NCBI RefSeq assembly: GCF_006740685.1
Contig: NZ_CP035425.1
Coordinates: 473,687-537,686, forward strand
From: Candidatus Nitrosopumilus sp. SW
GTDB taxonomy: Archaea > Thermoproteota > Nitrososphaeria > Nitrososphaerales > Nitrosopumilaceae
Reading direction: 5' to 3'
DNA length: 64,000 nt
Shown here in pieces: positions 20,539-28,477 of this stretch (position 1 is the first letter of the stretch; each line of letters starts with the position of its first letter). The notes beneath the pieces are model-generated. The model was not told where the DNA came from, made no database searches, and worked only from the letters and a program-made list of their open reading frames with translations. Made by a program: the position numbers and the translations under genes.

Positions 20539-21678
20539 TTAGGATTCACAACCAATTCCGTTATTGTCCCCATCAAAGTTGTGAGGATCAGGTGATAGTA
20601 CAGTAAATTTCTTGTAAACAACATCTACACAATTCAAGTCAGGTGGGGGTGATGGAATACAAAAATCAGGATATGATGCATCACAGTTGTTTTGACTATC
20701 AAGTGCAGGAGTTGAAGATGGAATGTGTTGACATCCATGTTTTTGAGCCCAAAAATAATGCTCAAATTCTGATTTTTCACAAAACTCTGAACTTAGATAT
20801 CCTAATCCCGAATCCAGTAATTCTTGATTAAGAGATAATCCATTACAGTATATTGCACCAAGCATTCTGCCATGACTTCCTTCAGTCTGTTTGTCATCTT
20901 CATCAACTAGCACAAAAGAGTCAACTGGGCATATTGTCTGAATAAAATTTCTAGCTTCAACGCCGTTTACCTCATCAAGTTCAGGAGCTGATGCCAATGC
21001 AAACCGAATTGATTTTCCATCAACATGAATTGTATCACCATCAACAATTTTGGTTACATACCCAGATAGGCATTCAGCATATCCTTTACAATCATCAGGA
21101 TTTGCATAATTTCTGAATTCAGGAATTCGTGGCTCTACATAACATTCACCACGATGTTTCATTGCCATGTGCTCGGCATTTAATCCACAAAGATTACCAT
21201 AAGTTATTCCATCAACACCACATACAGGGTTGTACTCCATTGTACATGCAATTGCAGGTTTTTCAGAATACCAACCACGATGTTTCATCTTTTCAATAGA
21301 TGTATTATTGATACAAACTGGTGTTGCATCATGTTTGAACATCAATTGTTTTCCCTCAACACAGATAATATTTTCAGCTGAAATTCCAGCATGTTTTTGG
21401 TGAAGTGGTCTGAGGTATTCTTTGATTACTCCATCCATCATGCATAATCTTCCGGCATATGCACCAGGTCCACATCTATCATCAAGTACACAAATCCCAT
21501 CCAAAGAAGCAAATCCAGGGGCACACATTCCCATGTAGGATTTGTGATGTTTCATCTCATTTAGCATTCCATGATGTCCAGAATATTCAGGATGTGAGGG
21601 TGCAAAGATAGGAGCAGGGATCAGTAAAACAAAGGCAATTACAACAATAATAATTTCTCTCAACAACATCACTAGCAT
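20539..21678 (-). CDS. Secreted Kazal-type domain fused to thermonuclease (SNase) domain with Excalibur-like tail
   Basis: The 379-residue exported protein has a signal peptide (~residues 1-26), a Cys- and His-rich region, a Kazal-type protease-inhibitor module with PVCGVDGITYGNLC (~145-180), then a staphylococcal-nuclease-like domain (~205-315) starting VTKIVDGDTIHVDG. By eye, the catalytic Arg (IRF), Glu (APEL) and Arg (HGRMLGAIYCNG) of SNase are kept, but the calcium ligand equivalent to Asp40 is Ser (ALASAPEL). The last ~20 residues (FDGDNNGIGCES) match the Excalibur calcium-binding pattern. The probable role is extracellular nucleic-acid cleavage, with the Kazal part protecting it or inhibiting proteases. 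The exact start within MLVMLLREI is uncertain. Confidence 0.85.
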   Translation of the reverse strand: MLVMLLREIIIVVIAFVLLIPAPIFAPSHPEYSGHHGMLNEMKHHKSYMGMCAPGFASLDGICVLDDRCGPGAYAGRLCMMDGVIKEYLRPLHQKHAGISAENIICVEGKQLMFKHDATPVCINNTSIEKMKHRGWYSEKPAIACTMEYNPVCGVDGITYGNLCGLNAEHMAMKHRGECYVEPRIPEFRNYANPDDCKGYAECLSGYVTKIVDGDTIHVDGKSIRFALASAPELDEVNGVEARNFIQTICPVDSFVLVDEDDKQTEGSHGRMLGAIYCNGLSLNQELLDSGLGYLSSEFCEKSEFEHYFWAQKHGCQHIPSSTPALDSQNNCDASYPDFCIPSPPPDLNCVDVVYKKFTVLSPDPHNFDGDNNGIGCES

Positions 21679-21699: not shown

Positions 21700-22302
21700 C
21701 TAGAAAGAATTCTCAAATGCTACCTCATCCAAATGTAACTGGCCACCACGAGGTGCTGCATCTTCTGCTCTTTTGCCAACTACTACCATCATTACAATAA
21801 GATGACTTTCTGGTAGGTTGATCACTTTGGCAAGTTCATCATACTCAAAGCCTACCATTGGACATGAATCAAGGCCCATGTCTCTAGCTGCAAGCATTAT
21901 TGTTTGAGCTGCCATACCACAAGAGCGAATTGCTTCATCTCTTTGTGCTTGAGTATCAGAAGAGTATTTTCTCTCAAGACTAGCTTTTACTAGTTCTTGT
22001 TTTTCTGTAGGATGATTCTTCCAGTAACGTAGTGGTTCAGTCTTCCATGCAGTCATATCACCACAAAGTACAACAACTAAGGAACCGTCTTTTGGTTGAG
22101 CTTGTCCCCTAGCAGCTTCTGAAATTTTTTCTTTAACATCTTTTTCAGTGACATAAACAAATCTCCAGTTTTGTTGATTGTAACTAGTTGGAGACAGTAT
22201 TACATGCTCCATGAGTTTCTTGACTTCATCAAGACTCATCTTGTGATTAGGATCAAATTTTTTGATAGCACGTCGAGTTGATACTGCTTCAAAAACATCC
22301 AT
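21700..22302 (-). CDS. Nitroreductase-family FMN oxidoreductase
   Basis: The 200-residue protein matches the FMN-dependent nitroreductase fold. It has the N-terminal STRRAIKKFDP motif, SPTSYNQQNWRFVYV for FMN binding, MAAQTIMLAARDMGLDSCPM in the central helix region, and VVGKRAEDAAPRGG near the end. Family members reduce nitro compounds, quinones or flavins with NAD(P)H as homodimers. The length is normal. Upstream, an ATTAAA-type element lies at 22332-22337. It is divergent from the hairpin array and the flavoprotein at 22604. Confidence 0.93.
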   Translation of the reverse strand: MDVFEAVSTRRAIKKFDPNHKMSLDEVKKLMEHVILSPTSYNQQNWRFVYVTEKDVKEKISEAARGQAQPKDGSLVVVLCGDMTAWKTEPLRYWKNHPTEKQELVKASLERKYSSDTQAQRDEAIRSCGMAAQTIMLAARDMGLDSCPMVGFEYDELAKVINLPESHLIVMMVVVGKRAEDAAPRGGQLHLDEVAFENSF

Positions 22303-22354
22303 GTAGTAAATACAAAATTTATCTAAAATAAATTAAACGAAAAGACAATTGAGA

Positions 22355-22490
22355 TTAAGATCAAGACCAAAAAGTATCTTGATGACATCTCTTATCACTT
22401 AAGATCAGAGACGATTGTGCTCTGATGACAGTGATTTTATCTTAAGGCCTGAAACGAATGTTTTCAGACGACAGACTTGTCTTTTCTTAA
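22355..22490. repeat. Three tandem ~44-nt hairpin units of unknown function
   Basis: The 301-bp gap 22303-22603 holds three consecutive units starting at 22355, 22399 and 22442. Each begins TTAAG, then an inverted repeat, then GAC, then 12-14 nt to the next TTAA. The stems differ in sequence but pair internally: ATCAAGA/TCTTGAT (22360-22366 with 22377-22383), ATCAGAG/CTCTGAT (22404-22410 with 22420-22426) and CTGAAA/TTTCAG (22449-22454 with 22462-22467). Loops are 10, 9 and 7 nt. Varying stem sequences with kept pairing and constant frame suggest a structured RNA or a tandem protein-binding array. The strand is unknown. Confidence 0.7.
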
Positions 22491-22603
22491 ACAGATTATG
22501 TGAATTTGATATTTAACCGGTACTGATAATTTCTACTAGTGGTAAATGATCTGAACAAATTCAGATAGTCTATTTATTACACCCCCGAGATTCACAAAAT
22601 ATC

Positions 22604-23617
22604 TTGAAGATTGCAGTAATGGGAATGGGTGTAGCTGGTTCCTATCTAATGGCCAGACTAAAAGACTCTGAACATGATGTTACAGGGTATGAGTTGAATC
22701 CAAAAGAAAGACATGATTCTATTTGTGCATGGGGAACAATCAAACCAATACTTACTGAATACTGTAAAAAGACAGGTAGAGACTTTAACGACTTTTTAAT
22801 CCATGATGGAAAAAATATGCATGTCAAGATGAACAATGATGTCAAGTTTGACATCGGATTACATGGATTATGCACATATGACAAGATTGGTCTAATCAAA
22901 GATTTCATTAAAGATTCGAAAATTATCTATGGAAAACCACCAACACTTGAGGAATTAGAAAAAGAGTATGATATGATAGTTGACTGTACTGGATTTCACA
23001 GAGTGTATTTACCAAAACTAAAGGAAGATTTCTTTTTGCCAACATACGAGTACAAAGTAGAATATGAAAATGGAGTTCCATATGATGACTTTTACATTGA
23101 ACCATTTCCTGGAATGTCAGGATATTTTTGGTATTTCCCACTAGGTGAAAAATGGGCCCATATTGGAGCAGGGGATTACAACAAAAATCACATTAAAGCA
23201 ACTGATGATTTTTTGAAAAAACATGGAGGCAAAGTTCTCAAGACAAAGGGAAGACCAATCAGATTGGCAACTCCAGATAGATGCAAGCCATACTATTCAG
23301 GAAAAGTTGTAGGGGTTGGAGAATCAATTGGAACAGTATATGCATTGTTAGGTGAAGGAATCATTCCGTCAATGCAATGTGTAGAATTGTTCTTAGAGAA
23401 CATGCATGATGTTAAAGCATATGAAAAGGCAGTAGAAGAACATTACAAAGTATATGCCAAAGTTTTCAATTTTGTGAGAGCAAAAATCAAAAAAGATTTC
23501 AATTTCTTCAAATCATTACCAGATTTTCTTGCAATATTTCGTTACATGAAAAAGAACGAAGACAGATTTGGAATGGATATCAAGATTGCTGACTTGATGA
23601 AAGTAGCTAAGGCCTAA
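22604..23617 (+). CDS. FAD-dependent oxidoreductase, geranylgeranyl-reductase family
   Basis: The 337-residue flavoprotein has the N-terminal dinucleotide fold KIAVMGMGVAGSYLMARL, the VDCTG motif (~residue 127), and YFWYFPLGEKWAHIGAGDY (~residues 165-185), typical of geranylgeranyl reductases. Such enzymes saturate isoprenoid chains of archaeal membrane lipids. The chain is shorter than the ~400-residue norm. The start is TTG at 22604, ~28 nt after a TATA-like TTTATTA. The hairpin array lies 114 bp upstream. It converges with the YkgJ-type gene with a 4-nt stop overlap. Confidence 0.85.
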   Translation: MKIAVMGMGVAGSYLMARLKDSEHDVTGYELNPKERHDSICAWGTIKPILTEYCKKTGRDFNDFLIHDGKNMHVKMNNDVKFDIGLHGLCTYDKIGLIKDFIKDSKIIYGKPPTLEELEKEYDMIVDCTGFHRVYLPKLKEDFFLPTYEYKVEYENGVPYDDFYIEPFPGMSGYFWYFPLGEKWAHIGAGDYNKNHIKATDDFLKKHGGKVLKTKGRPIRLATPDRCKPYYSGKVVGVGESIGTVYALLGEGIIPSMQCVELFLENMHDVKAYEKAVEEHYKVYAKVFNFVRAKIKKDFNFFKSLPDFLAIFRYMKKNEDRFGMDIKIADLMKVAKA

Positions 23618-24716: not shown

Positions 24717-24807
24717 AGCCCGATAGTCTAGCGGTCAAGGATTCTGCCCTCTGGATCTCACAAAGTGGATATAGGCGGAGACGGCAGTTCGAATCTGCCT
24801 CGGGCTA
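24717..24807 (+). tRNA. tRNA-Gln (anticodon CTG) with intron
   Basis: The acceptor stem AGCCCGA (24717-24723) pairs with TCGGGCT (24800-24806), with discriminator A at 24807; an A1-U72 pair is typical of archaeal tRNA-Gln. The anticodon stem CTGCC (24744-24748) pairs with GGCGG (24774-24778) using one G-U. The T arm is GGCAG TTCGAAT CTGCC. The anticodon CTG is at 24751-24753. The loop is interrupted by 18 nt. The mature tRNA would be 73 nt. No CCA is encoded. A TATA-like ATTATATTC lies about 30 nt upstream. Confidence 0.93.
24755..24772 (+). other. tRNA intron, canonical position 37/38
   Basis: The 18-nt intron sits after the base 3' of the anticodon. CTCAC and GTGG within it can pair around a 3-4 nt loop to form the bulge-helix-bulge recognised by the archaeal tRNA-splicing endonuclease. 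Confidence 0.8.
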
Positions 24808-26788: not shown

Positions 26789-28477
26789 TCACTCACTAAA
26801 ACCAAACAAAGATGAAAATACGCGAGTTATTTCTTCAAAAAAGTTAGGTTGTTTTTCGTTTTCATTTTCTTTCGGAATTATTTTTTCAGGTAAAGTTTTT
26901 TCATTTGATAAAGTTTCAATTTCAGATTCTTCTACATTGCTCACCTCAGAAGTTTCTTGAATTTCTGATTTTAGTGAGAGGGCATTGTTAAGATTTGTTC
27001 TTGCAGTATAGTAATTTGGATTCTCTTCTATAATTTCATTATAAAGCATGATGGCCCCATCAAGATTTCCAAGATTTGCCAATGCATTTGCCTTGTTATT
27101 TTTTGCAGGTAGATAGTTAGGATCAAGAGCAATAGCATGATCATAGTATGCTATTGCTTCTAAAACATATCCAATTTTTCCTAATGTAGAGCCTTTGTTG
27201 ACAAGAACTTCAACATCATCTGGATTTTCAACTAGAGATTCATTAAAAAAATTCAAAGAATCATCAAATTGACATAATCTGTAAAGTGCAGGACCCATTC
27301 CATCATAGTAAGAAATTGTATCAATAAAAGTACTAGAATCACATTCAAGATTAATTTGATTTAATAATTTTCCAAGTTCAATATCATCTACAGAAAGATT
27401 ATCATGTTTTTTATTTTCTAAAATATTTTTTGAATCAATTTTTGTCTCAGTTTCTTTTGAGACAATTTTTATTTCTTTTTTAGTTTCTGGTTTTTCATTT
27501 ATGGTTTCTTTTTCTGAAACCATTGTTTCATTATTTGCTTCACTTGCAGGTTCTATTATTGTGTCATCAGTTGTTTGTGTTGTGTCATCAGTTGTTTGTG
27601 TTGTGTCATCAGTTGTTTGTGTTGTGTCATCAGTTGTTTGTGTTGTGTCATCAGTTGTTTGTGTTGTTTCTTCAGTTGTTTGTGTTGTTTCTTCAGTTGT
27701 TTGTGTTGTTTCTTCAGTTGTTTGTGTTGTTTCTTCAGTTGTTTGTGTTGTGTCATCAGTTGTTTGTGTAGTATGTTCTGTAGAATATTCAAAGAAATAT
27801 TGTGCATCAGTTTCAGCATAATGTGCTTTTATCGAATATGTTCCTTCAGCTTTAAAGTTTACGCCATCTTTAACCAAAAAGCTTGTAGAAAACTCTAAGT
27901 CATTGTTTATGTTTCCAAAATAAAATCCAGCAGGAGTTCCAAACGGATCATGAATACCAATTAAGACAGTAGGCGAATCTAAAGTAGATACACTTCCAAA
28001 AATTTTGATTGTGTCGCCATCAAAATAATGGTCCCTTTCAGTATAGAAAGATGTGATTTCAGGAACTATTACTTCTTGAGGAACAATTTCAGGTTCAGAT
28101 TCAACAGAATTCGCCTGAATTACAAAGTTATGTTCTTCAGTTACTTGTCCATAGTCCAATTTTATGAGATAGTTACCAGGTATTTCATAAAATGGTGATT
28201 CCAAAGAAATTGTTTTTGAGAAGCTTCCATCAGATGCAAGTTCCAAATTATTTGCAGATAATATTTTCGCATCAGGATCAAATATACTCATAGCAATTAC
28301 AGGCATTCCAAAATCAATTACCTGTCCAGAAATTACTAATGTTTCACCAGTTTGATAGATACTCTTGTTAAAACTTACATTAAACGAATCCGCAAAAATA
28401 TCATTGAATGCAAGTGGTGCAAAAGCTGTTAACACTAGAGTTATCCCTAGGATGAATCGCATCACAATAAAAAACAC
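26789..28477 (-). CDS. Secreted repeat protein with heptad Thr-rich repeat and TPR domain
   Basis: The 562-residue exported protein has a signal peptide (~residues 1-30), then two Ig/MG2-like beta domains (YQTGETLVISGQV and YFDGDTIKIFGSV) resembling those in the PEFG-CTERM proteins. A stretch of ten perfect seven-residue repeats TTQTTDD or TTQTTEE follows (~residues 236-305), then a Lys/Glu-rich linker, and at least three TPR units (NKGSTLGKIGYVLEAIAYYD and similar). A surface scaffold or protein-binding role is likely; this is inference. The repeat tract should be glycosylation-friendly. It sits inside the RNA polymerase-ribosomal protein cluster. Confidence 0.85.
   Translation of the reverse strand: MFFIVMRFILGITLVLTAFAPLAFNDIFADSFNVSFNKSIYQTGETLVISGQVIDFGMPVIAMSIFDPDAKILSANNLELASDGSFSKTISLESPFYEIPGNYLIKLDYGQVTEEHNFVIQANSVESEPEIVPQEVIVPEITSFYTERDHYFDGDTIKIFGSVSTLDSPTVLIGIHDPFGTPAGFYFGNINNDLEFSTSFLVKDGVNFKAEGTYSIKAHYAETDAQYFFEYSTEHTTQTTDDTTQTTEETTQTTEETTQTTEETTQTTEETTQTTDDTTQTTDDTTQTTDDTTQTTDDTTQTTDDTIIEPASEANNETMVSEKETINEKPETKKEIKIVSKETETKIDSKNILENKKHDNLSVDDIELGKLLNQINLECDSSTFIDTISYYDGMGPALYRLCQFDDSLNFFNESLVENPDDVEVLVNKGSTLGKIGYVLEAIAYYDHAIALDPNYLPAKNNKANALANLGNLDGAIMLYNEIIEENPNYYTARTNLNNALSLKSEIQETSEVSNVEESEIETLSNEKTLPEKIIPKENENEKQPNFFEEITRVFSSLFGFSE
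27561..27770 (-). repeat. 21-bp minisatellite, ten units, in-frame
   Basis: Ten head-to-tail copies of a 21-bp unit encode TTQTTDD/TTQTTEE. The units fall in blocks (five D, four E, one D in plus-strand order), which suggests block duplication. Unit length is a multiple of three, so copy-number change keeps the frame. Confidence 0.93.

Follow-up and report, generated by a model that had tools for sequence, protein, structure and literature searches.

In bacteria the CsrB/CsrC and RsmX/Y/Z RNAs act by titration, GGA sites in their hairpin loops being bound by CsrA. Archaeal guide RNAs, which can have several hairpins, form two further classes of small structured RNA: C/D box guides carry a C (RUGAUGA) and a D (CUGA) box with the guide between them on the transcribed strand, and H/ACA guides have a variable guide pocket, a kink-turn in the upper stem and an ACA box 3' of the hairpin. 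From the Euryarchaeota, Tan1 (Thalassoarchaea ncRNA 1), an RNA of 229 nt, has been described from transcripts (PMC5069720). The locus reported here lies in a stretch of 64,000 nt (the window) of the single-contig, 1.50 Mb genome of Candidatus Nitrosopumilus sp. SW. Like CsrB/CsrC and RsmX/Y/Z, it would specify a free small RNA that repeats a short hairpin and has further gene copies in the genome, the binding being putative here; unlike CsrB and RsmZ, its constant part is a NUC/CUUA internal loop and its lone hairpins are apparently genes of their own. No GGA motif is shared by the apical loops of its arms in the alignment. With the guide RNAs it has in common that it is a small archaeal RNA with stems, internal loops and several hairpins, but boxes and kink-turn are missing and the internal loop is constant rather than variable. 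Like Tan1, it would be a lineage-specific structured ncRNA of abundant marine archaea, from which Tan1 is set apart by its description, namely its length and its euryarchaeal source (PMC5069720). Finally, its short, imperfect and dispersed palindromes recall REP and MITE-like elements; unlike in these, compensatory change is strand-biased, the three-arm copy has a fixed place and promoter-like sequences stand in front.

An earlier note, made from the sequence alone, had described three tandem self-pairing units, read on the plus strand as hairpins separated by plain spacers of 12-14 nt. At 22351-22476 there are indeed three such units whose stems pair with themselves, and by fold z-score they lie above chance, but the strand has to be reversed: for 22340-22500 the minus-strand RNA fold has z = -5.11, none of 200 shuffles being equally stable, versus z = -2.15 for the plus strand, which 4 of 200 shuffles equal. 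On the minus strand 22339-22486 forms one compact RNA made up of a closing stem and three arms (Table 1). In each arm two stems, outer and inner, flank a 3 x 4 internal loop, and an apical loop caps the inner stem. This internal loop has the strands GUC / CUUA in the window's own arms, the general form being NUC / CUUA. Of the layout first proposed the hairpins stand; the spacers are not plain, since the outer stem and the internal-loop strands lie in them and in the flanking TTAA(G). The extent of three units is likewise upheld, the enclosing stem, a perfect 10-bp pairing around the whole array, having been missed.

Table 1. Features of the three-arm locus and its surroundings, in window coordinates
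Feature	Position	Strand	Sequence	Remarks
Predicted three-arm structured ncRNA	22339..22486	-		5' end near 22486, 3' end near 22339
Closing stem, 5' strand	22477..22486	-	GAAAAGACAA	10/10 complementary to 22339-22348
Closing stem, 3' strand	22339..22348	-	TTGTCTTTTC	complementarity and partner permutation test
Arm 1	22439..22476	-	GTCTGTCGTCTGAAAACATTCGTTTCAGGCCTTAAGAT	covariation and single-arm model match
Arm 2	22394..22435	-	ATCACTGTCATCAGAGCACAATCGTCTCTGATCTTAAGTGAT	covariation and single-arm model match
Arm 3	22351..22391	-	GAGATGTCATCAAGATACTTTTTGGTCTTGATCTTAATCTC	covariation and single-arm model match
Predicted TATA box of ncRNA	22510..22516	-	TTAAATA	
Conserved upstream promoter element (predicted)	22518..22542	-	CCACTAGTAGAAATTATCAGTACCG region	kept in orthologues
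Predicted TATA box of geranylgeranyl-reductase-like gene	22571..22579	+	TATTTATTA	
Geranylgeranyl-reductase-like flavoprotein gene	22604..23617	+		divergent
TATA-like T-rich stretch	22323..22337	-	TTTAATTTATTTTAG	between ncRNA and nitroreductase
Nitroreductase-family gene	21700..22302	-		PF00881; downstream of ncRNA

Orthologous loci were located via the protein encoded at 22604. At the DNA level the region has matches in 29 of 61 genomes, and the regions upstream of the 22604 orthologues align well; the array, whose presence ahead of this gene in close relatives had been singled out for checking, is there in the loci examined. Across 24 orthologous loci (alignment A1, with L011, L013, L014, L004 and L030 left out) standard pairs are formed in 95.3% of pair cells. 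Two-sided change is seen in 15 of 38 pairs and in 55 cells, where shuffles average 7.5 and 16.0 and none of 500 reaches the observed values; in slid controls the paired fraction falls to 28-42%, and RNAalifold recovers the arms unaided. The closing stem, which is one column out of register in A1, was tested separately by exchanging partners between species: none of 5000 permutations paired as well as the native partners. The selection on RNA structure that the earlier note had read from the three units is borne out by covariation between species. Three of the loci left out (L011, L013 and L014) retain arms 1 and 2 but have a degenerate arm 3 or none.

The same alignment speaks for the strand. 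Read on the minus strand A1 contains 64 G-U/U-G cells versus 7 A-C/C-A cells, and as the plus-strand reading would turn the 64 G-U cells into mismatches, the predicted RNA is that of the minus strand. Lone copies of the module, described below, give 56 G-U to 9 A-C when counted at positions not needed for their selection. Alignment A3 was collected by a pattern demanding the loop and a minimum of pairing, which makes its counts partly circular, and A1 is the clean test. Only the internal loop and its flanking base pairs are near-invariant in the module, the stems covarying; the internal loops are constant among close relatives, where in arms 2 and 3 the apical loop varies without restraint. 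In the lone copies the apical part is rather constant, with the form ACNAAYCGU.

On the minus strand, TTAAATA or TTATATA precedes the closing stem by 28-30 nt in 27 of 29 loci; an intact element is missing from the remaining two. By the usual archaeal TATA spacing this distance fits transcription starting at the closing stem. The conserved upstream element is similar to the ATCAGNAT element that precedes lone hairpins. Covariation, G-U bias and the position of the TATA box all bear out the non-coding RNA that had been offered as one option among several: the stretch from 22486 to 22339 on the minus strand is very probably a free-standing structured ncRNA gene with its own promoter, holding three copies of the module within a closing stem. 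On its 3' side the nitroreductase gene follows on the same strand, 40-50 nt downstream, in most loci. The element is kept without an adjacent nitroreductase match in six loci (L007, L010, L023, L024, L025 and L027), and hence the ncRNA is not tied to this gene. The T-rich stretch between the two, conserved in position in 19 aligned loci, is a possible terminator and promoter. A scan for sigma-70 promoters and terminators, which is ill-suited to archaea, found none. Further along, window positions 20539-21678 (-) encode a protein that looks secreted and combines a Kazal domain with a nuclease-like C-terminal part. On the other side, the 22604 protein scores 52.4 bits against TIGR02032, under the cut-off of 158.8, and the TATA box of its gene lies 27-28 nt before the start codon in 29 of 29 loci; given this spacing the gene is probably leaderless, with the array outside its expected transcript.

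To follow the module elsewhere, we used covariance models of the three arms (R1) and of the single arm (R2). Such a search of thaumarchaeal genomes, which the earlier note had recommended, gives matches across the Nitrosopumilaceae with compensatory changes. R1 matches the window at 22485-22338 with 139 bits and recurs in the majority of the genus's genomes and also in another genus, g23 (G067, G110, G156 and G266), the three-arm copy holding its place across both. Genome G104, for example, carries the three-arm form at 324578-324724 (+) and lone hairpins at 520106-520146 (-) and 1004150-1004190 (-). Weaker partial R1 matches are, on inspection, lone hairpins with the same internal loop. In the organism's own genome R2 has exactly five matches at E <= 10, namely the three arms and two lone copies (C1:1330102-1330142 and C1:312607-312647, both on the plus strand), and all five lie at E <= 1e-8, the E-values being rough as they come from a short calibration. 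In the class R2 matches 144 of 400 genomes, which carry between 1 and 17 copies and, with one exception, belong to the window's family; in the phylum it matches 53 of 398, all in that family. By name, a scan for the module returned Nitrosopumilus, Nitrosarchaeum, Nitrosotalea, Thaumarchaeota and a few bins titled Nitrososphaeraceae. Across Nitrosopumilaceae genomes the module very probably makes up an RNA family, found in lone and double hairpins besides the three-arm form. A virus scan with a degenerate arm pattern gave at least 80 loci; among the 80 listed, only two matched the model, weakly (21.9 and 20.9 bits), which we take as chance, and no geranylgeranyl-reductase-like protein was found in viral contigs.

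Several variants were met along the way. A second three-part copy stands upstream of a DUF6659 gene (L093:3457-3601, L094:4124-4267 and L101:4054-4193); its arms 1 and 3 are canonical, and its middle arm has another structure without the NUC/CUUA loop. In genus g29, with genomes of 1.0-1.2 Mb, there are two nearly identical arms instead of three (L099:3880-3988 and L100:3985-4093), preceded by a CACTAGTTAAATATCA promoter. A contig titled Phycisphaerae (L247, JAJDDX010000191.1) carries two lone hairpins; its isolate prefix OFTM is common to a Nitrosopumilus bin, and the contig is probably mis-binned or contamination.

The lone copies occupy diverse contexts. At 22 loci a cupredoxin gene and a small orphan gene flank the lone copy, which is antisense to the two; at 5 loci the hairpin stands 92 nt upstream of a PAC2-family gene, and at 5 others about 110 nt downstream of a gene that we take to encode EF-2, an assignment made by recognition of its sequence and not by a family search. 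Some forty other places were each seen once or a few times, and neither a common target or neighbour gene nor a definable regulon emerged from the lone-copy loci. The pattern TCA[G/T]NR-N4-5-YTAAATA precedes 27 of 88 lone-copy records, some of which are redundant, and ends mostly 22-25 nt from the hairpin. By pattern search of the organism's own genome, ATCAGNATNNNCTAAATA has a single exact occurrence, which precedes the lone copy at 312607. Two positions distinguish it from the three-arm promoter ATCAGTACCGGTTAAATA, and sites within two differences of ATCAGNATNNNCTAAATA number 68 genome-wide versus 17 for the reversed control. These sequences point clearly to a common promoter within one group of lone copies, and are suggestive of one common to the window's three-arm copy and the lone copies. 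The shared promoter is absent from the cupredoxin and EF-2 loci. Just 3' of the EF-2 lone hairpin there is a second conserved palindromic stretch, GGTTCAGACCCCGAGGGGAAACTCAAGTCTGAACC (L102, L104, L118, L120, L175, L183 and L191), for which Rfam gave no match in L102 and L104.

A constant internal loop among covarying stems and drifting apical loops (those of arms 2 and 3) resembles recognition by a protein (or a ligand) rather than the signature of a guide or seed, and the multiplication of the module within one RNA fits a multivalent binder. The constant internal loop would be the recognition site of a putative RNA-binding protein, and the three-arm RNA would bind that protein multivalently, sequestering or assembling it, while the lone copies may be further small decoy RNAs or docking sites. 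The working mode would be like that of CsrB/RsmZ on CsrA, without relatedness. Multivalent protein binding is the mechanism that we prefer, and we advance it tentatively, as a serious possibility short of a probable one. As a combined explanation, ncRNA identity together with a protein-binding mechanism seems to us somewhat likelier to be right than wrong. The multimeric binding array that the earlier note had considered survives in part: its DNA or cruciform form is disfavoured by the ratio of 64 G-U to 7 A-C, and a multivalent protein-binding RNA is possible. A more tentative proposal again is that the Nitrosopumilaceae possess a modular RNA family of single, double and triple units, with partly dedicated promoters, which might constitute a protein-titrating post-transcriptional network around the putative RNA-binding protein. 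Marine ammonia-oxidizing archaea are among the sea's most abundant microbes, and a multi-copy conserved RNA module with promoter-like sequences offers a handle on post-transcriptional control in them.

The best-surviving alternative is a base-pairing small RNA, whose apical loops would pair with target mRNAs and whose internal loops would only bind a chaperone. A small, free-standing RNA with its own promoter would suit this role, as would the rather constant apical part of the lone copies; yet in arms 2 and 3 it is the apical loops that drift among close relatives, and not the internal loops, and we regard this alternative as unlikely. Distinctly less probable is that the element acts in cis on the nitroreductase gene, as its leader or as a riboswitch whose ligand site would be the repeated internal loop. 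Cooperative ligand binding is conceivable with three identical loops, and the strand and short distance agree with it in most loci, but a TATA-like box stands between the element and the ATG, the six loci noted above keep the element with no nitroreductase match beside it, the lone copies have no downstream gene in common and no riboswitch family matches.

That the module acts as DNA, either as a mobile palindrome (REP-, MITE- or attC-like) or as a cruciform protein site, we consider very improbable. Mobility would agree with the large number of lone copies found at non-orthologous loci and with the similarity of their ends, ATTGGAAC..GTTCCAAT, but the G-U excess is on one strand only (64:7, and 56:9 in lone copies), where a cruciform would show none; moreover the three-arm copy is fixed in place across the genus and g23, stems diverge with compensation, and a promoter stands at fixed spacing before many copies. 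Integron attC cores have the form RYYYAAC..GTTRRRY, which the ends, judged by eye, do not fit.

A known archaeal guide RNA of the C/D or H/ACA type is more improbable still. TGATGAC in two plus-strand units resembles a C box, and several hairpins would be in keeping with such RNAs, but UGAUGA is confined to the unsupported plus strand, there is no D box partner arrangement and no kink-turn, no Rfam family matches, and the internal loop, constant in sequence and measuring just 3 x 4 nt, cannot serve as a variable guide pocket; nor do the alignments reveal an ACA box at a fixed place. Least probable of all is a plus-strand leader of the geranylgeranyl-reductase-like gene, the tandem regulatory leader of the earlier note, which agrees with where the array lies in the loci examined, namely ahead of the gene, but has against it the gene's own TATA box between array and start codon in all 29 loci, the strand bias and the more stable minus-strand fold.

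Among described families, Rfam 15 at gathering cut-offs returned only a tRNA elsewhere in the window, a relaxed search of the array region gave chance-level matches only, and ten loci including relatives gave only tRNAs. The literature on Nitrosopumilus and thaumarchaeal ncRNAs that was covered, bioRxiv and most subscription papers being outside its scope, yielded no matching description. The tRNA of the window, at 24717-24807 (+), spans 91 nt against a model of 71 positions and possibly contains an intron; ARAGORN at default settings makes no call there. At 27559-27769, inside the ORF 26789-28477 (-), lies a 21-nt tandem repeat of 10 copies with 97% matches, which encodes a TTxxTTQ-rich linker.
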